From positions 1-36,180 of the forward strand of contig JADFHF010000037.1 of the NCBI GenBank assembly GCA_022567305.1: a stretch of DNA of 36,180 nucleotides, written 5' to 3'. The translations under genes and the position numbers were made by a program. The DNA is from Bacteroidota bacterium. Its GTDB lineage: Bacteria; Bacteroidota; Rhodothermia; Rhodothermales; UBA10348. Positions 535 to 30,588 of the stretch are shown one piece after another (positions within the stretch are counted from its first letter, which is position 1; each line of letters starts with the position of its first letter). The notes beneath the pieces were generated by a model. It made no database searches. It was not told where the DNA came from and saw only the letters and a list, made by a program, of their open reading frames with translations.

Positions 535-1503
535 CTACACTTCTTCAAGCCAATGAGACAATGATTCCGTCACGATAAGGAATGCCTCAGAAAACGATCG
601 ACCTGAGAAACTTGTTTTTTGTGGAAGTGAGATTTCGTGGTGTTGGAATGCATCTTGGAATCGATCGACAACATCTCTTGCGAGTGAAGCAGTTACGTGT
701 TCGTTTTGGTCTCCGGATAGAGCACTGGTGGCGAGACGTCGTGCCATGAGCAAGAAGCCGAAGATAGGCACCCACATACACCAGGTTGGGCGATTCCTCT
801 TCTCCGATTCCTCGAACCGGAGTAAATCGATCCAAAGCCGTCGGTTTGTTTTGTAATGCGCCGGACGGTTCGAGGTCTCGTGAACGAGGCCGGCCAATAC
901 CATATCCTTTACGGCGTCTCGAACCGCCTTTTTCGTATATCCAACCGCTGTGCTAATCATCGAAACCGAGTCGGAACCATTGTGAGTTCCTATCAAGTAC
1001 GCAAGCACATCTGGTTTAGCCCCGACTCCGAATGCAGCCCGTAAACGTAACATAAGGGTGGCGGGTGCAATCAGTTGTAACGTACTCTGCCCTCGCGTCT
1101 CGGACAGGAATGTCGGCAGAAGTTCACCCGCAGCATACCGTTTCCAGCTCCGGTGACCAGACGCAGCGGCCAGACTGGCAAATATCGCAAGGCTGGCGTG
1201 GCTATTCTCTTCAAACTGGTTGACCACGCTCTTCATTCGTTGGACACTTGTTAATGGAGATCCGACTCTTGCCCACCAGGACACCATTTCTTCGAGACGA
1301 CGCTCTTCTTTGCGGATCGTAAGCGAAAGCAGTATCAACGCTTCGGGATCGATAATGCAGCGACTTGTTGTCGGTGAGGTCGGTCGGGCTGCAGATCCGA
1401 GAATAGCCCACTGCCGCCAAGCCACATCGACGGCCGTCCGATTAGCGGTTTGGCTTATGTTTAGCCAGGTCTGTTCGTAATTGTTCAATTGCTTGACCGT
1501 CAA
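535..1503 (-). CDS. Winged-helix protein, partner of DUF6036-like nucleotidyltransferase
   Basis: A 322-residue protein without an N-terminal signal or clear membrane segment. A winged-helix-turn-helix-like stretch lies around residues 175-225 (VSMISTAVGYTKKAVRDAV then LVHETSNRPAHYKTN). The rest is mostly helical and is not recognised. It lies directly downstream of the nucleotidyltransferase gene and its first codon (TTG at 1503) overlaps that gene by 62 bases, so the two are translationally coupled, or the true start is a little further in. By analogy with AbiE-type and related modules, a DNA-binding partner next to a nucleotidyltransferase suggests a toxin-antitoxin or phage-defence pair. 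That role is inference; in AbiE the DNA-binding partner normally precedes the transferase, which is not the order here. Confidence 0.6.
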   Translation of the reverse strand: MTVKQLNNYEQTWLNISQTANRTAVDVAWRQWAILGSAARPTSPTTSRCIIDPEALILLSLTIRKEERRLEEMVSWWARVGSPLTSVQRMKSVVNQFEENSHASLAIFASLAAASGHRSWKRYAAGELLPTFLSETRGQSTLQLIAPATLMLRLRAAFGVGAKPDVLAYLIGTHNGSDSVSMISTAVGYTKKAVRDAVKDMVLAGLVHETSNRPAHYKTNRRLWIDLLRFEESEKRNRPTWCMWVPIFGFLLMARRLATSALSGDQNEHVTASLARDVVDRFQDAFQHHEISLPQKTSFSGRSFSEAFLIVTESLSHWLEEV

Positions 1504-2041
1504 ATGTTTTGAATTCCGTTCCGATGTCCTGGCTCCGAACCCAATCGGCCGCCTTATTGATTTCTACCTGTGTTGGTTCTAGCGCAAGGAGATCCTGCCA
1601 GTGTTTCGATGTTGGGCCTTGGTCGATAGCCGCAAACAGCTTCAGAGGAATCAGTCCCGATCGGCCAACGAAGCCAACATTTAGGACCCCAAAAGAATTC
1701 CACGAAATGTCTTCCTCGAAATCCGGCGGTAGTCCGAATTCCCACTGCTTGTCGATGACGGCATTCAGCCAATCTGACTGTAGGTTGTAATCGCGTGAGA
1801 CCCTACTTACTGCTTCAACAAATGCAGATGGGAAAGGAGTCGCTCTCACCAGGCGCTTTTCACCATCAACAATTTCTACGCGAGCAATAACATTTACATC
1901 TTTCGTCGTCCGATCGATTAGTCCGTAGGCCGTCAGGCTTGCTCCTCCCACCACAATAATCGTAATGGGGCAATTATTCCTCTCAAGATGAGCTCCGAGT
2001 GCAGATAATAGCTCAGTCAATAATGTGTCGTCAATGTTCAT
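1442..2041 (-). CDS. DUF6036-like nucleotidyltransferase (AbiEii-like)
   Basis: A 199-residue protein with the nucleotidyltransferase-fold signature VVGGASLTAYGLIDRTTKDVNV (residues 30-51): the GG-S turn, then a T-K-D-x-x strand. In active members of this fold the second motif is D-x-D. Here it reads D48-V-N50, so one metal-binding acid appears replaced and catalysis may be weakened or use a different residue. The C-terminal half (FVGRSGLIPLKLFAAIDQGPTSKHWQDLLAL) matches the helical region of this family, where a Lys and Asp are usually conserved. ATG at 2041 is the first start in frame. It is the first gene of a two-gene minus-strand operon with the winged-helix protein. Likely toxin-antitoxin or antiphage role, inferred from family and pairing. 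Confidence 0.7.
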   Translation of the reverse strand: MNIDDTLLTELLSALGAHLERNNCPITIIVVGGASLTAYGLIDRTTKDVNVIARVEIVDGEKRLVRATPFPSAFVEAVSRVSRDYNLQSDWLNAVIDKQWEFGLPPDFEEDISWNSFGVLNVGFVGRSGLIPLKLFAAIDQGPTSKHWQDLLALEPTQVEINKAADWVRSQDIGTEFKTFDGQAIEQLRTDLAKHKPNR

Positions 2042-2240
2042 GCCTGTAAGATAAGATCATCTTACGTATCGGGAAAGATGAACTATCCTTAAAGAAACGT
2101 CTAACTTACTTACGTATATTGGACCACTTTGACGACAGAATCTGATTTGGAGCTTGCATAAATGGTACTTTCGAATTAAATAATAGGGCCAAGTCCATAA
2201 AACAGGGATATTTATCGCAATACGTGGATGCATCACCCGA

Positions 2241-4142
2241 ATGCCCCGCCTCCTCTCCAAATCCAACTTCAAACACGCCCGCAGCTGCGTAACGAAGCTC
2301 TACTATAAGAAGGAGAAATATCCCTCACTTCTTGACGACGACCCTTACCTGGAGCTCCTCGCAGAAGGCGGATACATGATCGAAGAGATTGCGCGCATCG
2401 TCTATCCGGACGGCATCGCGATCGACTATACAGGTGGGGGAGAGGAAGCGGCCAAAAGAACGGGCGTTGCCCTCGACGCCGGCCACGACACCCTCTTCGA
2501 AGCGACCTTTATTTCAAACGGAAAGCTTGTCCGCGTCGACATCTTTCGCCAGACAGGAGACACGATTCGGCTCATCGAAGTGAAAGCCAAATCCTGGGAC
2601 TCCGACGAGGAAAAACGCCGCGCCACTGCCGGCAAGAAACGAGTCACCTGGGGTAGAAAGGGAATCCATGGCGATTGGGAAGACTACATCGCCGACGTCG
2701 CCTATCAGACGATGGTCTTGAGGGAAGTCTTCCCGGAGAAGACGATCACGCCCTATCTCTTCATGCCCGATAAGGCGAAGACCACATCCATCGATCTACT
2801 GCATAAGCATTTCACGCTGAACAAGCATGTCAATCCGTCGACGGGATATACGAGCTACGACGTAAAGTTCACGGGCGACGCTGAGAGTATGAGGGCCGAT
2901 CACTTCCTCACGCTCGTCGACGTCACCGAGGAAGTAGAATACATGATGCCAATGGTCAGGGCTGAAGCCGAGGCCTTGCTCGAGACGCTTCGTCCGGCAT
3001 TCCATCGACACCAGGCACCGCTGACGCCCAGATGCAAAGTGTGCGAATACCGGATCGAACCAGGTCACGATTCTGAGCACATTTCTGGAATCGATTCTCA
3101 AAAAGATTCTGCAGAAGACGTGCCGCCTTCAGGCTTCATAGAGTGTTGGGGAAGACTGGGCGCGCACAAGCCGCACATCTTTGACCTCTACTATGGGACG
3201 ACCCTGCAACGGGGCGGCGACAATCTGTTTCAGCAGCTAATCGATTGCGGCCAGACGTCGCTTTTGGAGATGGATGAAACGGACCTGTGTAAGGTGGACG
3301 GGACGGTGGGCAAGCGCAACGAGCGGCAGTTGATTCAGCTGCGCTGTTCGCGGGAAGGGGAGGAGTATCAGGATCCGAAGCTGGCCGAGGAGATGTCGGC
3401 TTTGGCGTACCCGCTACACTTCATCGATTTTGAAACGTCAACGACGGGGGTGCCCTATCACGCGGGAATGAGACCATACGAGGTGGTGGCTTTTCAGTGG
3501 AGCTGTCATACGGTTGATAGGGTCGGGGCGACGCCGCGCCATGCCGAATGGATCAATGCCGAAGACGCGTTTCCGAATTTCTTGTTTGCCCGTTCGCTGT
3601 ACGAGCATATCGGTTCGGACGGTACCGTGCTCATCTGGTCCTACCACGAGAACACCATACTGAGAGATATTCGGCGGCAAATGGAGGAGCGGAGTTTTGA
3701 GGATCCTGAATTGCGCACTTGGCTGGACGCAATCGTGCGCGATGATGCATCGGGAGGGCGGTTGGTGGACATGTACAAGCTCTGCGTCGACTACTACTTC
3801 CATCCAGTCATGGGAGGCCGAACGGGTATCAAGTATGTGCTGGCGGCTGTGTGGGCTTCGTCGGAGGCGGTTCGGGAGGCGTTTCCGGAGTACGTTACTC
3901 TGGGGGAGGATGGAGGTGTGCTTTCGCCTTATGAGGCGTTGGGGGCTTCCGAGTTTGACGGGCGGCTCGTGAGCGTGTCGGAAGGAACCGAGGCGATGAG
4001 GGCTTACGAGGCGATGATGTATGGGATAGAGTCGGAATCGCCGGAGCAGCGGGCAGCGATCCGCGAACTGCTCCTAAGCTACTGCAGACTCGACACCGCC
4101 GCGATGGTGATGATTTGGGAGTATTGGATGAGCAAAAGATAA
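2241..4142 (+). CDS. DUF2779 protein: Cas4-like PD-(D/E)XK nuclease plus RNase H-like domain
   Basis: A 633-residue protein of the DUF2779 family. The N-terminal half resembles a RecB/Cas4-type nuclease: E87 (LFEATF), D100 (VRVDIF) and E113-V-K115 (IEVKAKS) form a PD-(D/E)XK-like site. Cys16, Cys265, Cys268 and Cys302 are spaced as in Fe-S-cluster nucleases (one N-terminal Cys, three C-terminal). The C-terminal half carries an RNase H/DEDD exonuclease-like core: D396-F-E398, an IWSYHENTIL segment, LVDMYKLC, and the closing YCRLDTAAMVMIW. Length fits the family. The ATG at 2241 starts the typical LLSKSNFKHARSC opening; no Shine-Dalgarno site is evident. The cellular role of the family is unknown; DNA repair or defence is inference. 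Two degraded paralogous fragments lie at 373 and 30824. Confidence 0.85.
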   Translation: MPRLLSKSNFKHARSCVTKLYYKKEKYPSLLDDDPYLELLAEGGYMIEEIARIVYPDGIAIDYTGGGEEAAKRTGVALDAGHDTLFEATFISNGKLVRVDIFRQTGDTIRLIEVKAKSWDSDEEKRRATAGKKRVTWGRKGIHGDWEDYIADVAYQTMVLREVFPEKTITPYLFMPDKAKTTSIDLLHKHFTLNKHVNPSTGYTSYDVKFTGDAESMRADHFLTLVDVTEEVEYMMPMVRAEAEALLETLRPAFHRHQAPLTPRCKVCEYRIEPGHDSEHISGIDSQKDSAEDVPPSGFIECWGRLGAHKPHIFDLYYGTTLQRGGDNLFQQLIDCGQTSLLEMDETDLCKVDGTVGKRNERQLIQLRCSREGEEYQDPKLAEEMSALAYPLHFIDFETSTTGVPYHAGMRPYEVVAFQWSCHTVDRVGATPRHAEWINAEDAFPNFLFARSLYEHIGSDGTVLIWSYHENTILRDIRRQMEERSFEDPELRTWLDAIVRDDASGGRLVDMYKLCVDYYFHPVMGGRTGIKYVLAAVWASSEAVREAFPEYVTLGEDGGVLSPYEALGASEFDGRLVSVSEGTEAMRAYEAMMYGIESESPEQRAAIRELLLSYCRLDTAAMVMIWEYWMSKR

Positions 4143-4212
4143 ACCAAGTGATGGGTCATTTCGACGGGAACGGCTAGCAACACGGCAGACATCCGGCTAT
4201 TGAATCGACTCT

Positions 4213-4842
4213 CTACCACTTGTTCGCATTCAGCCAGCCAACTACCAGATGGGAATAATCGTGAAACACGAATTCATCTACACCGAGTTTCAAACCAGAA
4301 CAGAGTACCGGGAGCTCACTCAAGAATAATACATACCGATCGACGATTCTTGAACCACTGGGAATGTTGATAGACTTATGCCGGAGGGTGTTGCGAAGCC
4401 AGTTTCTAACCACAACAATTAGCTTTGTGACGTCGTCGTCGTGGGACCGAATATCCTGACCGGCTATATCCGAACAGAACATCTGGTACCGCTACCTTTC
4501 CCGATCAAGCACCAGACAGACTTTCTCTCGTTGACCACGATTACCGAAATGTCGAGCTCCAAGAAAGAGGCCTAGCTCCAGCGGCATGTTGAATCTCGGG
4601 AGCTGGTTTGTTGGATCCAGCTCGGTCCTCGATACGTCGTGAATACCGTATCGGCATTCTCGAATCAGGGTAATCAAGGTATCCGCCCGAACCTGTGCAC
4701 CGTCGTCAAATTCCAGTGCACATCTTGCAATAAATCCACAATCGTGGATTGCAAAAACTAACGCGTCAAAAAGTGAGGAGTACTGATTGTCAAACGGGCA
4801 ATTAATGAACACACCCTTGCGATAGGGTATTTTGCCGCCCAC
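4213..4842 (-). pseudogene. Conserved FINCPFD-type protein gene, interrupted by one amber codon
   Basis: Two frames (4842-4495 and 4491-4213) are the same reading frame separated only by TAG at 4494-4492. Read through, they give a ~209-residue protein: FINCPFDNQYSSLFDA, then IRECRYGIHDVSRTELD, MPLELGLFLGA, VCLVLDRER-stop-RYQMFCSDIAGQDIR, and a C-terminal LVVGWL. I recognise this layout as a widespread uncharacterised family that normally has Tyr where the stop is (DRERYRYQ), so a TAC/TAT to TAG change explains the break. The N-terminal fold suggests a TIR- or nucleotide-binding-like Rossmann domain, but that is inference. The GTG at 4842 is the likely start. A small frame at 4855-5022 may precede it in an operon. 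Sequencing error or amber suppression would make it intact. Confidence 0.75.
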
Positions 4843-12812: not shown

Positions 12813-15722
12813 CTAGTTCAGCCGGAAATTGACGCGTATACTCATTAAGACCTTGACCGGGTTTCCCCGTTGTTTTCCAGGTATGAATGATTGAAGCATC
12901 ACAGCCCGCTTGGCTTCGTTGTCGAGGGCTTTGTGGACGGACTTTTCGATTGTAGGATCGCTCGGCTCGCCGTATTCATTGATTATGATCCGTACGACTA
13001 CCGTCCCTTCCAATCCGGCTCTTATTGCTATCTCCGGATATTTGATCGTAGAGTTGAGGGCAGTTATCCCACCTACCATCGTCGGTGGATCTTCAACAAT
13101 TTCGAATATCTCCGGCTCGGTCTCCTCAGATTCTTGAACCGCTGCGGGCGGAGATGGCCGTTCAGCGAAGGCTACATCAAGATCCTGAATTGAATCGAAG
13201 TTCAGGTCGTCGTCCAGGATGACATCGTCCGGGACTACAACCGGAATTACGACCGGGACTGCAACCGGAACTACGACCGGGACTGCAACCGGGACAGGAG
13301 GTCTCGGCGGTGGCGGCCGCTTTTCAATCTGTTTAGTTTGATTAATGAAGTTCGGATTCAACAGTACAAGATTCTCGTCATATCGAGCGCGTTTCCAGGG
13401 ATTATCCGGGAGTATCCTATTCATCAGCAGCCCCCATCTGGGGTCTTCACGAAACTGATTGGTAAACGGAGCCAGATTTAGCATGCTCATCCAGGGTTCG
13501 TGATTATCGAGTGCTCTATTCAGTTGCTCAAAGGCGATATCAAAATCTCCAAGAGCGGCATGAACGGCGGCGAGACCCGTCTCAGGCACGTACTGCATAA
13601 GCGATAATTCCTGAAGCGTTCGAAGGACCGCACGGGCTTCATCCATTCGTCCGTTCATCGCAAGAAATATTCCGCGATAGCTCTGGAAGATTACACTTCG
13701 GCTCCCAGGCCCGGTCGTGAGTCGTCCTAAAATCTCTAACGCACCTACATAGTCGCCCCGTTTCGCGAGCAACTCCGCATGTCGAAGATTGATCAAGGGA
13801 CCGTCTGGGTTCAACTCGATTCCATTCAGCACAATCTCAGTAGCTGATTCAAGGTCACCGAGATTAATGAGATACCAAGCCTGATTTGTGATCATCCGGT
13901 AATCCAAAGCATAGCGGGATGTTGCAATCTGATGATGAACTTGATCTAATACATCGGCAACGTGACCCAGATTAATCAGAATCCTCATGTCTAAACAATC
14001 ATCTCCTCCCGGCCTCGATTCAAGACACAGCTGCATAAAATCGAATGCCTGTTTGAAGTTGAACTCCATGAGTTCAACCTGAGACAGTGAATAATATGCC
14101 ACCCTGGAGTTGGGTGCGTTCACCTGTGCCAGTAGAGACAAGCGGCGAACCTCCTCTCTCAACACTGGAGTCGGAGGTAAAACCCCATACTCCATGGTAG
14201 TATAGATGAGTCTGACCTTTTCCTCGTATGCATTCGCATACGTTGAGTCAAGAGCCAGTGCTTGGTCGACCAACTGTATCGCTGAGTGGTAGGACGCTAA
14301 GGATGATAGATCCACTAAGTGCTCCGCCCTCGCACGCAGAAGCAGGTTGTAGGCCTCCAGGCTATGCGTTCCGTTCGCGCCACCATATTTTGTGATATCG
14401 AGCGGCGTGAAATCCGAATGGATCGCCGCTGCAATATCGCTCGCGACTCTATTTTGTACGGACCAGAATTCCTCTATTTTCAAATCGAGGCCGGCCGACA
14501 TCACAGAAAATCCTGTTTCCGTATCCGTGACTTCATAGATAAACCGCAGAGAATCGCCGCTAATTCGAGTGCTGCCAAGTAGAACGTATCGTACGCCGAG
14601 CCGCACACCCATTTCCAGTGGGTCCGCAGTCTGGCTTTTGATATATCTAGCTGCGTTGATGGATGCGACTCGGATGTTTTCAATCTTACTAACCGTAAGG
14701 AAAAGCTCGTCAGCCATCACGTCTCCGAGATACTGGTTCTCCTCTCCCAAACTGTAATCGTCGAACGGTATGATGGCGATCGTTAGATCGTTCTCTGAGG
14801 TTCGTATGTCTGCGCGCAGTAATCCGGGAAGAACGAACACGAGAAGCGCGGCTGTCACTGCGACTGTGGCTAACGCCCAGGCCCATCGAGGGACAGAGAC
14901 CGTTGATTGGGATTCGTCGATGGAGGAGTCCGATAGCCGGGATGTCACTTCGGCGGCGTCGGGTCGTGCATTCGGATCTTTGGAGAGAAGATCCTCCAAG
15001 CAAGAGATAATGCTCGCAGGTACGGACTCGCGAACCGATACGGGAACTTCAGGATCGACATTTTTAATGGAGTAGGCGAGCGCTGCATCGTAATCGCCCT
15101 GGAACGGGTATTCTCCTACGAGCATTTCAAAAAGTATTACACCGAGCGACCACATGTCGGTCTTCGCCGTGACCTCTTCAGCTCGGGCTTGCTCGGGACT
15201 CATGTAGGCGGGCGTGCCAAGCGTCGTACCATTCTTTGTCAAAACAACTGCACCGGAGAGTTTCGCAATACCGAAATCCAAGATTTTAACTTCTCCGCGA
15301 GAATTGATCATGACGTTTTCGGGCTTGATGTCGCGGTGCACGATGCCGGTCTCATGAGCCCGTTCAAGGCCTTGAGCGATCTGGAGTGCGTAGTAGGCAG
15401 CTGTTTCTGGCTTCATGGGATCTTCTGCAAGGACCTGTCTCAGGCTTCTACCGTCGACATACTCCATGATGAGAAAGAGGCGTTCGTCCGATTCGCTGAC
15501 GTCATAGAGGGTACAGATGTTGGTGTGCGTCAACGAAGCTGCGGCACGGGCTTCTTGCAAAAGCCGGTCGCGGAATCGATCATCCCGAATGAGCCCGTTA
15601 GCGAGAAATTTCAGTGCGACATCTCGATCAAGTCGAGTATCCCGGGCGCGATACACCACGCCCATGCCGCCACGGCCGAGTTCTTCAAGGATTTTGTAGT
15701 GCGAAACCGTTTGGCCAATCAT
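12813..15722 (-). CDS. Ser/Thr protein kinase - TM - TolB-like/TPR - TonB C-terminal domain fusion
   Basis: A 969-residue chimera. Kinase residues ~8-270: GRGGMGVVYRARD, VALKFL, HRDIKPENVM, DFGIAK, GTPAYMSPEQA, DMWSLGVIL; all catalytic residues present. One transmembrane helix follows (~278-300, WAWALATVAVTAALLVFVL). Then comes a TolB/adenylate-cyclase-associated-like segment (IAIIPFDDYS, YVLLGSTRI), TPR-like helices (~450-770), a Pro/Val linker (~800-832) and a complete TonB C-terminal domain (~880-969: YPEIAIRAGLEGTVVVRI, then PxIEKSVH, ending in VNFRL). Kinase should be cytoplasmic and the TPR-TonB part periplasmic. ATG at 15722 is chosen because AGGTGA precedes it and relatives begin MIGQTVSHY. 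A TonB end on a receptor kinase is unusual. Confidence 0.88.
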   Translation of the reverse strand: MIGQTVSHYKILEELGRGGMGVVYRARDTRLDRDVALKFLANGLIRDDRFRDRLLQEARAAASLTHTNICTLYDVSESDERLFLIMEYVDGRSLRQVLAEDPMKPETAAYYALQIAQGLERAHETGIVHRDIKPENVMINSRGEVKILDFGIAKLSGAVVLTKNGTTLGTPAYMSPEQARAEEVTAKTDMWSLGVILFEMLVGEYPFQGDYDAALAYSIKNVDPEVPVSVRESVPASIISCLEDLLSKDPNARPDAAEVTSRLSDSSIDESQSTVSVPRWAWALATVAVTAALLVFVLPGLLRADIRTSENDLTIAIIPFDDYSLGEENQYLGDVMADELFLTVSKIENIRVASINAARYIKSQTADPLEMGVRLGVRYVLLGSTRISGDSLRFIYEVTDTETGFSVMSAGLDLKIEEFWSVQNRVASDIAAAIHSDFTPLDITKYGGANGTHSLEAYNLLLRARAEHLVDLSSLASYHSAIQLVDQALALDSTYANAYEEKVRLIYTTMEYGVLPPTPVLREEVRRLSLLAQVNAPNSRVAYYSLSQVELMEFNFKQAFDFMQLCLESRPGGDDCLDMRILINLGHVADVLDQVHHQIATSRYALDYRMITNQAWYLINLGDLESATEIVLNGIELNPDGPLINLRHAELLAKRGDYVGALEILGRLTTGPGSRSVIFQSYRGIFLAMNGRMDEARAVLRTLQELSLMQYVPETGLAAVHAALGDFDIAFEQLNRALDNHEPWMSMLNLAPFTNQFREDPRWGLLMNRILPDNPWKRARYDENLVLLNPNFINQTKQIEKRPPPPRPPVPVAVPVVVPVAVPVVIPVVVPDDVILDDDLNFDSIQDLDVAFAERPSPPAAVQESEETEPEIFEIVEDPPTMVGGITALNSTIKYPEIAIRAGLEGTVVVRIIINEYGEPSDPTIEKSVHKALDNEAKRAVMLQSFIPGKQRGNPVKVLMSIRVNFRLN
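13234..13294. repeat. 24-bp tandem repeat encoding Pro/Val linker
   Basis: Two full units of 24 bp (13234-13257, 13258-13281) and a partial third (13282-13294) differ at two positions; the unit begins ACTGCAACCGGAACTACG. They encode alternating VPVAVPVV-type residues in the linker before the TonB domain of the kinase fusion. In-frame unit number can change linker length without breaking the gene. Confidence 0.8.
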
Positions 15723-15990: not shown

Positions 15991-16212
15991 TCAATTTTTA
16001 TAACCGGTTCTGAATGCTGTATATATCTGGCAGATCTGAGTTGTCGATTTCAATCGGAGCTCGCTGAAGACTGCAGCCGGCGACGGCAAAACCTTGATCA
16101 CCACCGTTTGGTCGAGTTTTGTGTCCTCAGCCTTGTAGATGATCCCGATCCCGCCGCGGCCCAATGCTTCGAGGACCCTGTAGTGGAATAAGGACTTGCC
16201 GACCATAGCCAT
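15991..16212 (-). pseudogene. Ser/Thr kinase gene remnant (N-terminal ~45 residues)
   Basis: The frame opens like a complete kinase (MAMVGKSLFHYRVLEALG, then GRGGIGIIYKAEDTKLD and VVIKVLP, the invariant Lys included) and loses similarity after about 48 codons. It then ends at 15991 with no catalytic loop. It lies between the two intact kinases on the same strand and shares the upstream leader of the kinase-NACHT gene. Clearly a truncated paralogue, left after deletion. Confidence 0.85.
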
Positions 16213-16265: not shown

Positions 16266-19262
16266 TCAACCCACTCTGACCTCGGCTGATTCTGCCCTCC
16301 CCATATCGGCGAAATGCTCCAAGAGCATCCGGTGGATGAATATGTAGCCCGCCCCTGCCCGCCGAAGGAAGATCAGGGATACAGCATGATTCAGGAATCG
16401 CTTGAGGCGGCCCGGCAATCGCTTCTTGGCCGTCAGAAAAACTCTGAGCACATAGTGGTCGATAATTTCCATGCCACCATACCAGATAGCTGCAAGCAGG
16501 CCTATTGACCCGGCTGCTTTCGCAAAAGCTGTCACAATCTCGCTGGTGTCGAAAGGATTAGAATCGCCTTTCCAAAGTCCATCGGCGATTACTAATAATG
16601 CTGTAATTATTCCCGCGATCATCGCAGCTACGAGCCCGCCAAATATGGAGCTTCGTACTGAGTAGCTAAACCCTGAATCATCCGCGGTTGCCGACCTCAA
16701 ATGTCGTTTCCCCAAGCCTCCAAAAACTGCCCCTAGTGAACCGACAAACAACATGCCTACTGCAGCCATAATTAATGGAGAGACGACCGCTTCGTCTTCG
16801 GCAAAAGGCGTTGATGGTAGCCACAGACTCAAAATAACTCCAACTGCGAGACCAACAACAGCAAAGTAACCGGCGAGTTTTCTTGCCGCTTTGAATGACC
16901 AGTTGAGGGATTCAACAGGTCGAATGTCGTCATCAAAAGTTGTGCGAAGTCTTCGAAACCCGAATAGGAATCCAAAAAGAAGAGCGTGGATTGTAGCATT
17001 AACGATTGCGTCAACAAGTCCCATGGATGGGAACATAGTTCCAGTCTGTACCAGATAGTGATAGGCGATGCCTGCGGCTACGGCGGAAAGAAATACGGAG
17101 GCCACTTTCATTCCCCTTGTTAGTCTTTTAGATGGTCGCTTTTGGCGAGATGCCTGTTTCCCCTTGCTTAACTGGTTCCATTCAAACTGACCGAGCGTTA
17201 GACCGACAAGTCCTCCCATTACCAAGTACATTGTGGCGTTTGAGAAATCGTGAATCGCTACCACTAGTCCGGCGAGAAGCCCGGCTAATCCGCGAGATAT
17301 CATCACATAAAACCATCGCCCACGGCTCGATTCGATCCAACTCGGCTGAAGCTGCCCAATCGATAAAACAGATTGCGCCTCTGAGTACATCTTCGCTGCA
17401 ATCCATTTTAGTCGGGCGACCGTTTCCGTTTGGCTAAATGACGAAGTGCGCATTCCACGACGAGCAAGCATCCTATTGACATACGTGTCAAATAAGTGGG
17501 TCCGTCGTGCACGTACGTCACCTTCCGAGTCGCTGATCACCTCGGCTAGAGGCACGTCCTGATAGGCAAGACTCATCACGTCCAGCATGAGTGGCGTTCG
17601 CGCCATCTCTTGCAGCGCAGTATCGCTCTGAATGGCCTCATGAAGACCAGAAAGCACCTCCCCTGAGGACGCTATGTAGTCCAGCACTTGCTCCGTACTG
17701 AGCGCTTGAAGCCGTATCGCCGCGAATAGACGAAGACGCTCAGGAAGAGCGGTGTAGTCAGCAAGTCGACTACAAACAGCCAGTCCGGGGACTCCATGCA
17801 GGTCCACATACTCATTAATGGCTTGGACGCACGACAAGCGGTGACTGGTTGAGACCTCGTCTAAACCATCTAGCAGCAGAACGAGCCGATTCTGCTCAAG
17901 CCATGCACGCCCCATCTTTTTCGGGACGTGGTACCTGGTACTCAGTTCTACCGTTAACCACTCAATAAACGGCACCCCTTTTTGAGAGAATGAGGACAGA
18001 TTGAGAACTACGGGTATCGGCTGAGATACGTCCTGTTCAGCGACAGCGATGAGGTACTGAGCTAATTCAAGAAGCGTGATCGTTTTTCCTGATCCCGGTG
18101 AACCAAGAATTAAAATGGATCGACTGACTTCGTCGAAGACTTCCCCGATATCCTTGTCTTGCGATATCGACCGGCTCTCTTGTCCCGGAAGCTCCAAGAC
18201 CTGCTCCCACGGATGTTCGATCGCATCGGATTGCACCTCGATTCCTAGGCGCAGAAGAGCCTCTCCGTGTACGGATTGCTGAAGCACACCTTCGATCCAG
18301 AACTGACGAACCTTTTGAAGCAATATCAACAGGTTCGTCTGATCGAGTGTGTCGATCGGAGGAACTTGTTCTCTCTTCTCTTCAGGTATTTCGGGACGTG
18401 CTTCCGGCTGTCTCGCTCGCACCGCTCCATCACCGGCTAAAGCGTCTTCAGGCCAGAGTGAGGCAATTCGCAGGTCTTCTACGATTTCTTCTGCGTCCGC
18501 GGATCGATACTCGGCTTTCTTATCGAGCATTCGATTCACAAGCTCCTCCAGCGGCTTGGGAATGTCGGGCCGAACGATACGGAGAGACTCGTGGCTCGCA
18601 TTCAGGATCGAATAAATGACCGCTGCTTCGATCGTACCCTCGAAAGGTCTTTGACCCGCCAAAAGTTCGTAGAGCACAGCGCCAACGGACCAGATGTCGG
18701 TCCTGTGATCGACTTCTTCGCCGCGAGTCTGCTCGGGCGACGTGTAAGCAACGGTTCCAAGCGTTGTGCCCGTCTTGGTGATGTCTACTCCTGATATCTT
18801 CGCCAAACCGAAATCAACGATCTTAACCACTCCATCGCCCGTCAACATGATGTTCGCTGGCTTGATATCACGGTGGATGATCCCTGCCTTGTGGGCTGCT
18901 GAGAGGCCATCGGCGATCTGTGCCGCGTATCCGATGGCTTCGTTGATGGGTAAACCGCCATGAACAATTTTCTCTTTGAGTGTGCCTCCGGAGTAGTATC
19001 CCATGGCGATGAAAAGCTCTCCGGTCTCGGTCTCGTCGATCTCGAAGATGGTTCCAATGTTAAGGTGATCGAGCGCGGATGCCGCCTTCGCTTCCTGAAT
19101 GAAGCGGGCTTTTGCATCTGGATCAACGGAGAGCGAGGGGCGGAGAACTTTGAGTGCAACCGTGCGGTCGAGCCGCGTGTCTACGGCTTTGTGGACAACT
19201 CCCATTCCGCCTTCGCCCACTTGCTCGACGACTCGAAAGTGAGATATGGTTTGACCGATCAT
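16266..19262 (-). CDS. Ser/Thr protein kinase - NACHT NTPase - multi-TM protein
   Basis: A 998-residue fusion. Kinase residues ~8-265: GEGGMGVVHKAVD, VALKVLRP, HRDIKPANIML (~130), DFGLAK, GTVAYTSPEQT, DIWSVGAVL. A linker leads to a segment VRQFWIEGVL (~317) that in other bacteria precedes NACHT domains. NACHT follows: Walker A GSPGSGKT (387-394), Walker B LVLLLDGLDEV (~460-470) and a helical/winged part to ~640. Residues ~647-905 hold about eight hydrophobic helices. The C-terminal GYIFIHRMLLEHFA motif is typical of this NACHT branch. ATG at 19262 begins the shared MIGQ(T)xSH opening. Relatives are known in cyanobacteria and Chloroflexota. NACHT proteins include antiphage sensors, so a defence or stress-sensor role is plausible but inferred. 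Confidence 0.9.
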   Translation of the reverse strand: MIGQTISHFRVVEQVGEGGMGVVHKAVDTRLDRTVALKVLRPSLSVDPDAKARFIQEAKAASALDHLNIGTIFEIDETETGELFIAMGYYSGGTLKEKIVHGGLPINEAIGYAAQIADGLSAAHKAGIIHRDIKPANIMLTGDGVVKIVDFGLAKISGVDITKTGTTLGTVAYTSPEQTRGEEVDHRTDIWSVGAVLYELLAGQRPFEGTIEAAVIYSILNASHESLRIVRPDIPKPLEELVNRMLDKKAEYRSADAEEIVEDLRIASLWPEDALAGDGAVRARQPEARPEIPEEKREQVPPIDTLDQTNLLILLQKVRQFWIEGVLQQSVHGEALLRLGIEVQSDAIEHPWEQVLELPGQESRSISQDKDIGEVFDEVSRSILILGSPGSGKTITLLELAQYLIAVAEQDVSQPIPVVLNLSSFSQKGVPFIEWLTVELSTRYHVPKKMGRAWLEQNRLVLLLDGLDEVSTSHRLSCVQAINEYVDLHGVPGLAVCSRLADYTALPERLRLFAAIRLQALSTEQVLDYIASSGEVLSGLHEAIQSDTALQEMARTPLMLDVMSLAYQDVPLAEVISDSEGDVRARRTHLFDTYVNRMLARRGMRTSSFSQTETVARLKWIAAKMYSEAQSVLSIGQLQPSWIESSRGRWFYVMISRGLAGLLAGLVVAIHDFSNATMYLVMGGLVGLTLGQFEWNQLSKGKQASRQKRPSKRLTRGMKVASVFLSAVAAGIAYHYLVQTGTMFPSMGLVDAIVNATIHALLFGFLFGFRRLRTTFDDDIRPVESLNWSFKAARKLAGYFAVVGLAVGVILSLWLPSTPFAEDEAVVSPLIMAAVGMLFVGSLGAVFGGLGKRHLRSATADDSGFSYSVRSSIFGGLVAAMIAGIITALLVIADGLWKGDSNPFDTSEIVTAFAKAAGSIGLLAAIWYGGMEIIDHYVLRVFLTAKKRLPGRLKRFLNHAVSLIFLRRAGAGYIFIHRMLLEHFADMGRAESAEVRVG

Positions 19263-26606: not shown

Positions 26607-27344
26607 CTACGAGCTCAGGTCGCGGGCTTGCTCTTCAATGGCTACACCGTTGTCTGAAACGTCGTCTTCCGTGGGCATCTGCATGACCCCGTTCTTCCAC
26701 GACCAGGCTACGAGAGCCGGACGCCATCGTACATCAACCAGGCTCTTTAACTTATCGACTTGATTACGCACCGTATGCTCCGAGCGACAAACAACATCCG
26801 CAATATGTTTGTTGGTGTGCCCCATCGCCACCAGTTTTAAAACACGTAATAGCGTTGTCGTTATGCCCAGCTCCTCAACTTGCTTTCTGGCGTTCTCCTT
26901 CTCCGAAATGCTTCGCACCTTCTGTCTTTCCTGATTGACGATCTGGATAGAAACGCGTGAACTGATATAGACGCCGCCCTTCATGATTTTTCGAATCGCG
27001 TCGGTGATGTCTTTTAGCGACTCATCCTTCGTGATGTATCCGGGTGCTCCGCTTTCCAGAACGCCAATCACATACTCGGGACTGCTGAACCCGCTTAGTG
27101 GAAGGACGAGCGTCGGAATGGATCTGGCCTGTAATTCTCGGGCAACTTCCAGACCAGAGAAAAGAGGTAACTCCATGTCCAGCACGAGCACGTCGGGTAC
27201 GAGTTTTGCCGCCAATTCAATGGCATCTTTTCCGTTCTCGGCCTCTTCGATGACGACCATATCGGCTTCGCGCTCGATCTGTGCACGAATACCCTCCCGA
27301 AAAGCAGGGTGATCGTCGGCGAGCATTACTCGTATCAAATCCAT
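26607..27344 (-). CDS. NarL/FixJ-type response regulator
   Basis: A 245-residue response regulator. The receiver domain has D10-D11, phosphoacceptor D56 (VLVLDMEL), a Ser in LPLSGF where Thr/Ser is conserved, and K in GYITKDES. A LuxR-type helix-turn-helix follows (~155-200: LLRVLKLVAMGHTNKHIADVV, SEHTVRNQVDKL), with a variant first helix (GITTTLLRVL rather than LTxREREVL), then a ~45-residue acidic tail beyond the usual end. It starts 31 bases after the sensor-kinase stop, so the two form one operon and a cognate pair. DNA targets are unknown. Confidence 0.9.
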   Translation of the reverse strand: MDLIRVMLADDHPAFREGIRAQIEREADMVVIEEAENGKDAIELAAKLVPDVLVLDMELPLFSGLEVARELQARSIPTLVLPLSGFSSPEYVIGVLESGAPGYITKDESLKDITDAIRKIMKGGVYISSRVSIQIVNQERQKVRSISEKENARKQVEELGITTTLLRVLKLVAMGHTNKHIADVVCRSEHTVRNQVDKLKSLVDVRWRPALVAWSWKNGVMQMPTEDDVSDNGVAIEEQARDLSS

Positions 27345-27375
27345 GAGAGTGTCATTTTAGCTTGTTGGTAAGATA

Positions 27376-30300
27376 TCACGTTTCGCCTCGAGACAAAATA
27401 CGACCTACGCGAGCAATACGGTTGTGAAGCCGCACCGATAAGCTGGCTTCAAGTGGGATCGTAACCAATATTTGGGTCCCTTTACCGGGGGTGGAATTCA
27501 CCCGTAAAGTCCCTCCCGCTGATTCAGCCCACTCCGAGATACCGAGCATACCATATTGCTTGTTTCTAGCGAGCATTACCCAATTGTTCGGCTCCTTAAA
27601 TCCGTTACCATCATCACGAATTTCAAGGCTGAGAGACGCCACGTCGTATCGAACAGAAATCCACGCATTCTTGGCCTCAGCATGTCTCAAAACATTACTG
27701 ATCGCCCCCTGGTAGATCCGGAAAAGCGTTAACCTCAACTGATCTGGTAATTCAGGCCCCTCGCCGTGAAAATCGAAATGAATCGTAAGATCTTCGATCC
27801 CGTTTTGCAGCGAATGCACATGATCCCTGATGGCAGGCTCAAGCCCAAAAGGGCCGATGGTAGGAGGGCGAAGCTCTCCGATGAGACTCCGAAGATCATC
27901 ACCTGTCTGCCTTAAAAGCTGCTTGGCAGCTTCAAGTCCATTTTCCCTGTTTTCAGGAGGAATCACCGACTCCAGCAGTTCCAACTTGTGCTGTACCGCA
28001 TACAAATTTTGAAGTGGGGCATCATGAATCACTCTTGTGATCAGCAGCCGTTCTTTTTCGCGTCCCTCTGCTAGCATCTGTCGCTTTTCATGGGCTTTCA
28101 TTTTACGTTGCATAGCGCCGTACCAGATGATCACGGCGAAAACGCTGGAAAGCCCAATAATAAAAAAGCTCAGAAAAAACGCCGTTCTCCACCAGGGAGG
28201 CGAGATGGAAACGAAGAAAGTCGATTCGGTCCAGTTTATTCCATCGGCGGTCGCCTGCACATTTAATTCCAACTCTCCAGATCGTCCTTCAACGTTTGCA
28301 TACCGGGCACGACCGGCAGCTCCTCGACTGAACCGACTTCCGTCTTCGAATTCCGAAAGGATTATTTGAAAGACGTGCTCTGACGGAGCAGAATAGTCCA
28401 AGAGCGCGAATTCGAACGAAAACAATCCGTCTCGGTGGGACAGTTCAATCGTTTCACCCGGATAAACATCCGTTCGAATGGTATTACCACGCACCAAAAC
28501 CGAAGTCATAACGAGTGCGGGAGGTTCACTGCTTATTGTTAATGCGGAGACGGGGAATTCCAGGTACCCAACTTTTCCCCCCGCGGTGATTATCCCTTCG
28601 GTTGAAAGGGATAGCGTTCCCAAATTGAACTGAAGATCAGGGAGGCCATTAAGCTGACCATAATTAATGAAGGTATTCGTGTCACGGCTAAATCGTGAAA
28701 TACCGTGGCTCGTAGTCAACCATAATTTATCACCCTGACCAACAGCCAGGCCCAGAACCGCTCCTCCCGGGAGACCGTCAAGGGACGAAAAGACTCGGAG
28801 ACTTTCGCCAGCATATCGGACAAGTCCTCCGTACGTCCCGATCCAAATAATTCCAGCCGCATCTTCTGTGATCGAGGTCACCCGATTTAAAGCGGCAACG
28901 AGCGTACCTCCCTGTGTCAGATCAATGCGATCAATGGTCGAGGTTGCTGGATCGAGGACGTTTACGCCGCTGTCAAACGTGCCTATCCAGATCCTACCGT
29001 CTTGGCTTTGATATAACGTGCCGATGTGATCGTCACTGATCGTAGCTGCATCGTTTTCCCTTGTTCGGTAGCGCTTGGCCTCACCGCTTCGAGGATCTAA
29101 TCGGTTTAGACCACCTCCGTCCGTTCCTATCCAGACCACTCCCGAGTCGCCCACAACTAAGCTATGTACCGCGTTGCTGCTAAGACTAATGGGATTGTCC
29201 GGATCGTTCTTATAGTGCGTGAATGTTTCAGATTTCGGATCGAAAACGGAGACACCTGCATCAGGACTTCCTAACCAAAGGCGACCAGCATCATCCTCGT
29301 CCAGTGCAAAAATCAGATCGCTGGGTATTGAATTCGTCTCTCCAGTCAGATGGCGAAACACAGAAAATTCGGAGTTGCTTCGGTCAAATTTGGTCAGACC
29401 CCCGCTCGTGCCGATCCAGATGATATCGGGCGCGACAGAACTCGTTTTAATCGCGCGAACATCGTTGCTACTCAGTGATACATCAGCGAACGGTTCGCTA
29501 ACGAAGTGATCGAAGGCCTCCGAATGGAGATTGTATCTGTCCACTCCGTTCTCGGTAGCAATCCAGAGCATCCCGGCACGATCCTCGAAGATTGCATCCA
29601 CGATGTTGTTCGACAGGCTTTGAGGATTCGTGGGATCGTGCAAAAATCGAGTAAACGTTCCAGACTCGCGTTCGAATCGGTTGACACCTCCGTCGTAAGT
29701 CCCAATCCAAATCTTGCCTTGCCGATCTTCGTGAATTGCCCAGACTTTGTTGTCCGCAAGACTCGCGGGATCATCCGGATCGCTGCGATAACGCTTGAAT
29801 TCGTCGGTTGTCTGATTCCAGACGATGAATCCGCTTGTTGTGCCGAGAAGGAGGTTTCCGTACTGATCTTCGTTTAGGGCCCGTACCCGACCCGTAATCC
29901 GTCCAATTTCGGCATGAAGTTCGGAGACGCGAGTGACCTCATCGTTCAATGGGTCTAAGATGCTCAGACCGTCCTTCCAGGACGCAACCCATATGTTACC
30001 GTCAGAATCTTCGAAGATCCGCTCAACTGAGTCGCTCGTTATCGTACTCGTGGATGTCGAGTCATGTAGAAAGTGGGTGAACCGACCTGTTTCAGGATCG
30101 AGTCGGCTGAGTCCACCATCTGTTGCGATCCAAATTCTACCATTCCGATCTTGCAATAGACCATTCGTATTTCCCGAAAGTAGACCCTTCCCGGTAGATT
30201 TTCCGCTAAAAGGAAATCGGACAATCGCCACGGAATCTGCAGGCATCATGTTGATTCCAGCGTTTCGCGTTCCAATCCAGATATTTCCTTCTCTGTCCTC

Positions 30301-30588
30301 CAATAGAGAAGTAATCCAATTGTCAGAGAGCGAATTCTGATTGGTCGGCTGGTGATAAAAGTGCCTGAATGAGTGACCGTCGAACCGATCGAGGCCGTTT
30401 TTCGTCCCGAACCACATGAATCCGTGTCGATCTTGAATGATCGCATAGACATCAGCGTGAGATAGGCCGTCCTGAGTCGAAAGATGTTCGAAGCGAGCTC
30501 GCGTGGACTGCGCTACGGACTCCCCGACGAAGAAAATTGCCAGGATTATTAGGGGCGCTCTGTTGAGGTAGACCTGCAAACCGAACAC
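27376..30588 (-). CDS. Sensor histidine kinase with two-component-regulator propeller
   Basis: A 1070-residue membrane sensor. After a signal sequence (APLIILAIFFVGESVAQS), about 13-14 propeller repeats occupy ~30-700, each with a D-x-x-G-x-(I/L)-W-(I/V)-(G/A)-T core. A Y_Y_Y-like beta domain follows (~700-795), a transmembrane helix (~800-825), then a HisKA_3 dimerisation helix with VIHDAPLQN (His ~854) and a HATPase_c domain (NVLRHAEAKNAW, IRDDGNGFKEP, GMLGISEWAESAGG, GKGTQILVTIPL). Such proteins sense a periplasmic ligand, often a polysaccharide product, and phosphorylate the partner regulator downstream. GTG at 30588 has no clear ribosome-binding site. Ligand unknown; there is no neighbouring glycan locus on this side. 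Confidence 0.92.
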   Translation of the reverse strand: MFGLQVYLNRAPLIILAIFFVGESVAQSTRARFEHLSTQDGLSHADVYAIIQDRHGFMWFGTKNGLDRFDGHSFRHFYHQPTNQNSLSDNWITSLLEDREGNIWIGTRNAGINMMPADSVAIVRFPFSGKSTGKGLLSGNTNGLLQDRNGRIWIATDGGLSRLDPETGRFTHFLHDSTSTSTITSDSVERIFEDSDGNIWVASWKDGLSILDPLNDEVTRVSELHAEIGRITGRVRALNEDQYGNLLLGTTSGFIVWNQTTDEFKRYRSDPDDPASLADNKVWAIHEDRQGKIWIGTYDGGVNRFERESGTFTRFLHDPTNPQSLSNNIVDAIFEDRAGMLWIATENGVDRYNLHSEAFDHFVSEPFADVSLSSNDVRAIKTSSVAPDIIWIGTSGGLTKFDRSNSEFSVFRHLTGETNSIPSDLIFALDEDDAGRLWLGSPDAGVSVFDPKSETFTHYKNDPDNPISLSSNAVHSLVVGDSGVVWIGTDGGGLNRLDPRSGEAKRYRTRENDAATISDDHIGTLYQSQDGRIWIGTFDSGVNVLDPATSTIDRIDLTQGGTLVAALNRVTSITEDAAGIIWIGTYGGLVRYAGESLRVFSSLDGLPGGAVLGLAVGQGDKLWLTTSHGISRFSRDTNTFINYGQLNGLPDLQFNLGTLSLSTEGIITAGGKVGYLEFPVSALTISSEPPALVMTSVLVRGNTIRTDVYPGETIELSHRDGLFSFEFALLDYSAPSEHVFQIILSEFEDGSRFSRGAAGRARYANVEGRSGELELNVQATADGINWTESTFFVSISPPWWRTAFFLSFFIIGLSSVFAVIIWYGAMQRKMKAHEKRQMLAEGREKERLLITRVIHDAPLQNLYAVQHKLELLESVIPPENRENGLEAAKQLLRQTGDDLRSLIGELRPPTIGPFGLEPAIRDHVHSLQNGIEDLTIHFDFHGEGPELPDQLRLTLFRIYQGAISNVLRHAEAKNAWISVRYDVASLSLEIRDDGNGFKEPNNWVMLARNKQYGMLGISEWAESAGGTLRVNSTPGKGTQILVTIPLEASLSVRLHNRIARVGRILSRGET

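Follow-up and report, generated by a model that had tools for sequence, protein, structure and literature searches.

Why should a bacterial receptor kinase end in a TonB C-terminal domain, and what could such an end do for it? The question is raised by the gene P0001, located in a 36,180-nt stretch of DNA which was analysed as a whole and is called the window in the following. The gene is a single uninterrupted frame of 969 codons, which runs on the minus strand from an ATG at position 15722 down to 12813; an alternative start at an upstream GTG would yield 972 aa. A first-pass annotation had read from this frame a kinase with all catalytic residues, one transmembrane (TM) helix, TolB-like/TPR segments, a Pro/Val linker and a full TonB C-terminal domain. 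All of these elements were recovered, the TolB-like part only weakly.

The N-terminal part of the protein (residues 9-260; 14943..15698, minus strand as for all features of the gene) matches the Pfam kinase domain PF00069 with an E-value of 2.5e-59. The catalytic residues K38, E57, D131, N136 and D149 are kept, and the motif HRDIKPEN is intact. By its fold and by the catalytic Lys, HRD Asp, Asn and DFG Asp, P0001 is a Hanks-type Ser/Thr kinase, whose activity is predicted. Residues 280-302 (14817..14885) are the sole stretch that scores as a membrane helix, both by hydropathy and by a simplified insertion score, and this TM helix is the kinase's own and not that of TonB. A TPR region of about residues 450-775 (13398..14375) is supported by Pfam TPR matches within residues 609-741 as well as by the alignment with relatives that stop here, and closes with FREDPRW..LL, the end motif of this kinase type. 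Between helix and TPR region, the alignment with kinase relatives suggests a TolB/FlgO-like domain at about residues 308-440 (14403..14801). This assignment is the weakest piece of the layout: the Pfam search of P0001 gave no match over this part, and FlgO/TolB_N matches were obtained for relatives only and below the cut-off.

A Pro-rich linker follows at residues 793-868 (13119..13346), recognised by its homology to the linkers of free TonBs and predicted to be periplasmic. It contains the expanded Val/Pro run VPVAVPVVVPVAVPVVIPVVVP, which is encoded by a 24-bp tandem repeat of 2.7 copies (13229..13292) and stands where free TonBs have the shorter PVEVPND. With a Kyte-Doolittle hydropathy of 2.74, this run exceeds the TM helix 280-302. 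We considered it as a second TM helix and rejected it on the grounds of its simplified insertion score, which is +2.05 versus -2.6 for helix 280-302. The score is unfavourable despite the high hydropathy, proline occupying every fourth residue. A periplasmic tail is therefore the better prediction, and we infer a layout in which the kinase is cytoplasmic while the TolB-like/TPR segment and the TonB arm are periplasmic.

The tail itself (residues 893-968; 12819..13046) is a complete TonB C-terminal domain as judged by profile searches and by its modelled fold. Pfam TonB_C (PF03544) matches with an E-value of 1.6e-16 and 61 bits (cut-off 24.6), spanning profile positions 3-79 of 79, and the NCBIfam model tonB_Cterm scores 45.1 bits over residues 894-969 versus a cut-off of 27.1. 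Solved TonB domains are also matched by a profile that combines the tail with Bacteroidota TonBs (5lw8, E-value 3.2e-10). The structure prediction is in good agreement with this. When the last 200 residues were modelled with AlphaFold2, the domain came out confident and the linker did not, and in a Foldseek search with the tail model TonB domains rank first, including those solved with FoxA, BtuB and FhuA; the best match is 6i97, a TonB with the receptor FoxA (E-value 1.2e-5, target TM-score 0.84). We compared 42 free TonBs of the order and called a position conserved if 80% or more of them agree. Of 30 such positions, 26 are kept in the tail and 27 in the free TonB that the same genome carries on contig C76, and the domain therefore shows no visible decay. 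One of the exchanged positions is P963 in the last strand, which is R in P0001 and T in two Bacteroidales TonBs. In E. coli, Ton boxes are exposed once the receptor is loaded. The tail of P0001 is expected to bind the Ton boxes of TonB-dependent receptors.

As the genome is split into 115 contigs and the fusion was seen in a single genome, kinase and TonB pieces might have been wrongly joined during assembly or binning. We searched the genome for a second copy of the junction DNA (501 bases) and found none, the best other match comprising 28 bases at 89%; an assembler would thus have had no repeat to join on. Neither did the genome yield an orphan TonB front half lacking its own end. The two sides of the junction resemble each other in GC content and codon usage and differ in both from the adjoining sugar genes; the frame is kept, and other kinase/TonB_C fusions exist. 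We consider an artificial join very unlikely, with a small doubt remaining. Both outcomes that the first-pass annotation had named as speaking against the fusion are hence missing: the tail matches TonB_C well, and there is no sign of an assembly join.

In kinase relatives of the same build, the motif FREDPRF..LL..G marks the C-terminus, which corresponds to residue 770 of P0001. The fusion junction lies within residues 783-793 (13344..13376), where the homology to kinases ends and that to TonB starts at I793 and continues to the C-terminus. Over 177 columns, this part shares 56% identity with the free TonB on contig C76, and a tblastn-type search gave 62%. A tree of TonB domains, derived from a short alignment and with many forks open, places the tail beside this free TonB (SH-aLRT 89) and inside the set of free TonBs (94). 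By these sequence comparisons, the tail derives from a free TonB, and most likely a receptor-type kinase of the lineage's expanded kinase/TolB/TPR family gained the linker and C-terminal domain of a free TonB by gene fusion. In the nearest free TonB (L076; 3795-4649 of contig C76, minus strand), the TM helix is preceded by a long cytoplasmic extension at the N-terminus, which is seemingly common to other members of its clade.

The N-terminal TM helix of TonB docks on ExbB. This helix is absent from P0001, since its TonB homology starts downstream of the helix position in free TonBs. Between TM helix and proline linker, 15 free TonBs have the stretch QE(V/I/L)VQ(M)EE(I/V) in common; P0001 reads LLNPNFI at this site, and the junction falls inside that stretch. 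In E. coli, the D-box of TonB binds ExbD (PMC10907165), and this element, also called the motor box, was reported in all TonBs (PMC12204202). Assigned by position, the conserved juxtamembrane stretch of the order's free TonBs would correspond to this box. The motif occurs in none of the kinase-fold/TonB_C proteins examined. Its absence is suggestive rather than decisive, because the pattern, which was defined on the 15 free TonBs, matches only 23 of 48 collected free TonB frames. These observations suggest that P0001 is devoid of either element by which TonB binds its motor, the TM helix as well as the likely ExbD-binding motif, so that the arm would be passive, probably able to bind Ton boxes but not to pull. 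The earlier idea of a TonB end on a receptor kinase thus holds as far as the domain is concerned, while the coupling would be that of a tether or Ton-box reader and not an energised one.

Searching for the same fusion in other genomes, as had been proposed, we obtained no ortholog. The kinases found with full-length P0001 among 60 relatives end before the tail, and a search with the tail in 114 genomes, followed by the complete lists for 48 of them, returned no orthologous fusion in the family or order. None of the long frames fetched from the tail searches is an active kinase of the P0001 type, and a scan of GTDB contigs with the tail gave only free TonBs of Bacteroidota. Selection on the architecture as a whole is therefore not directly apparent.

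The assumption that P0001 is unique in its architecture was rejected, as kinase-fold/TonB_C proteins were found in 14 other genomes of the order. In eight long frames, a kinase fold is combined with a TM helix and a C-terminal TonB_C, and in most of them also with TPRs. They have HG/HA in place of HRD, which identifies them as pseudokinases. With a pseudokinase profile, TonB_C-tailed members were found in the same order only, among 394 genomes of the phylum. The same search yielded the locus L117, an active-looking kinase of 559 aa, in which VAVK, HRD and DFG are kept and TonB_C matches with an E-value of 3.2e-23. After a further search with L117, pseudokinases were counted in 13 genomes and the active-looking kinase in one. 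The pseudokinase-TM-(TPR)-TonB_C family (L090-L094, L096, L098, L099, L115, L124, L129, L153, L157, L159, L162, L164) extends over at least three families of the order, and its lineage is seen in families other than that of P0001. In a quick tree of the kinase parts, P0001 is located among ordinary TolB/TPR kinases, across a branch of length 1.97 with 100% support from the pseudokinases and L117. The two kinds of fusion would accordingly have arisen independently; by this tree, the kinase-fold/TonB_C architecture emerged at least twice in the order.

M56 peptidases, a multihaem cytochrome and PEGA/TPR proteins of the same order likewise have TonB_C at their C-terminus. The cytochrome (L078; contig C439 of genome G041, 1371-3797, plus strand) is an 809-aa protein of the NapC/NirT type in which a linker leads to a complete C-terminal TonB_C; it would be odd for a cytochrome to extend towards the outer membrane through a TonB domain. 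Four genomes each encode a large TPR protein (L089, L097, L103, L104; frames of 959-1260 aa) with a lipoprotein-like signal first and TonB_C last, and three M56/BlaR1-like proteins (L101 at 1337-4705, plus strand; L080; L095) carry two consecutive TonB_C domains. Kinase, TolB/TPR part and TonB_C are each already known, and TonB_C on signalling-type proteins (M56) is also present in the order. No account of a kinase/TonB_C protein turned up in the open-access literature; public domain databases may list such architectures.

The surroundings of the gene were inspected as well. Downstream on the same strand, 202 bases off, a galactokinase-like gene is found together with genes for a glycoside hydrolase with F5/8 type C domains, a sodium:solute symporter and an aldose epimerase. 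Due to the 202-base gap and the different GC content, P0001 is not placed in this sugar operon, though it may act in sugar uptake. Upstream, a 543-base gap contains the relic of a kinase gene (16087-16206, minus strand), i.e., 40 residues of a kinase N-terminus with 53% identity to P0001 (E-value 1e-13), after which the frame breaks. It is followed by a second Ser/Thr kinase (16266-19262, minus strand), which contains a NACHT-like part and, in its C-terminal portion, several hydrophobic stretches. Further away (26607-30588, minus strand), a two-component-propeller sensor histidine kinase of 1070 aa adjoins a response regulator. In the window we observed no TonB-dependent receptor or ExbBD gene, no RNA family and no tRNA, and its promoter and terminator scans gave matches no more than expected by chance. 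The genome as a whole matches 3 ExbD, 7 TonB_C and 25 receptor plug domains. Partners of the TonB domain, including free TonBs, thus exist elsewhere in the genome, in line with the check proposed at first.

How could these parts work together? Our favoured reading, to which we grant not quite an even chance, is that P0001 is a receptor kinase that passively reads TonB-dependent receptors or is tethered to them. Its TonB domain would bind the Ton boxes of loaded receptors. Without TonB motor parts, the arm would stay passive and tether the kinase to these receptors; if the periplasmic part is thereby clustered or pulled, the kinase activity may change. A regulation of P0001 phosphorylation by receptor loading is hypothetical. 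In the other, mostly pseudokinase lineage, phosphorylation may not be the purpose of the TonB end.

Two alternatives are serious, whereas coupling to the motor and an assembly artefact are less likely. PASTA domains position the kinase PknB, and the TonB end of P0001, or its whole periplasmic part, might likewise only position the kinase at the outer membrane or cell wall, without conveying any information on receptor loading. Such a role is in good agreement with the presence of TonB_C on very different proteins of the order (M56, multihaem cytochrome, PEGA, TPR), which fits a general anchoring module, and with a linker of about 76 residues, long enough for crossing the periplasm. However, the tail is most closely related to ordinary free TonBs, and the conserved positions of the domain are kept, so we regard mere positioning as unlikely, though to be reckoned with. 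Alternatively, the tail may have no function at all and just lengthen the C-terminus after a fairly recent read-through fusion. The confinement of the fusion to one genome, the slippage-type repeat in the linker and the kinase relic just upstream, which suggests a high gene turnover at the locus, would suit this explanation. Yet the tail is only about 60% identical to its nearest relatives and hence not brand new, its frame and conserved positions are kept nevertheless, and the same kind of architecture persists across several families in another lineage; a functionless passenger appears rather doubtful to us.

An arm that is still coupled to ExbB/ExbD, by which the kinase would read the motor or the proton-motive force, could rely on the ExbD genes of the genome. 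With the TonB TM helix absent, the juxtamembrane motif broken at the junction and a large folded segment separating TM helix and linker, we hold such an energised sensor for improbable.

If the reading as a passive reader or tether is true, a kinase with a Ton-box-binding periplasmic end links receptor loading to phosphorylation in one chain. Known signalling by TonB-dependent receptors mostly involves a receptor signalling domain and an anti-sigma factor. In P0001, nature would also have parted the end of TonB that binds receptors from the one that binds the motor, which provides a way to ask what force-free binding of Ton boxes does. TonB_C recurs on kinases, pseudokinases, M56 proteins and a cytochrome, which suggests a portable, outer-membrane-reaching module in this order. 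As a speculation that we ourselves consider unlikely to hold in full, the TonB_C-tailed kinases and pseudokinases may be repeatedly evolved trans-envelope receptors that read the Ton-box exposure of loaded receptors directly and passively, allowing for phosphorylation signalling without a receptor signalling domain, an anti-sigma factor or a motor.

Compared to known systems, P0001 shares the Pro-rich linker and the complete C-terminal domain with the TonB energy transducer, its closest counterparts being free TonBs of the same bacterial family. The transducer has a TM helix and an intact juxtamembrane motif, whereas P0001 has a kinase and a TolB-like/TPR segment ahead of the linker. With the TolB-like/TPR Hanks-type receptor kinases it has the kinase, the one TM helix, the TolB-like/TPR segment and the end motif at about residue 770 in common; these stop there, while P0001 adds about 190 residues of linker and TonB_C. 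The PknB/Stk1 PASTA kinases (NF033483) also consist of a kinase, one TM helix and an extracytoplasmic binding part, the latter being predicted in P0001. Their PASTA repeats have no Pfam match in P0001, which carries TonB_C instead, and NF033483 reaches 304.7 bits versus a cut-off of 450, over residues 8-267 only. The M56/BlaR1-like proteins with TonB_C resemble P0001 as membrane proteins of signalling type with a TonB_C end and no motor-box motif, but they are peptidases and not kinases, and P0001 has no M56 match in Pfam. The pseudokinase-TM-TPR-TonB_C proteins and L117, finally, share kinase fold, single TM helix and C-terminal TonB_C with P0001. In contrast to P0001, they belong to a distant kinase lineage with no recognised TolB-like domain and with tails unrelated to its own in the tree, and the pseudokinases have lost the HRD that P0001 keeps.
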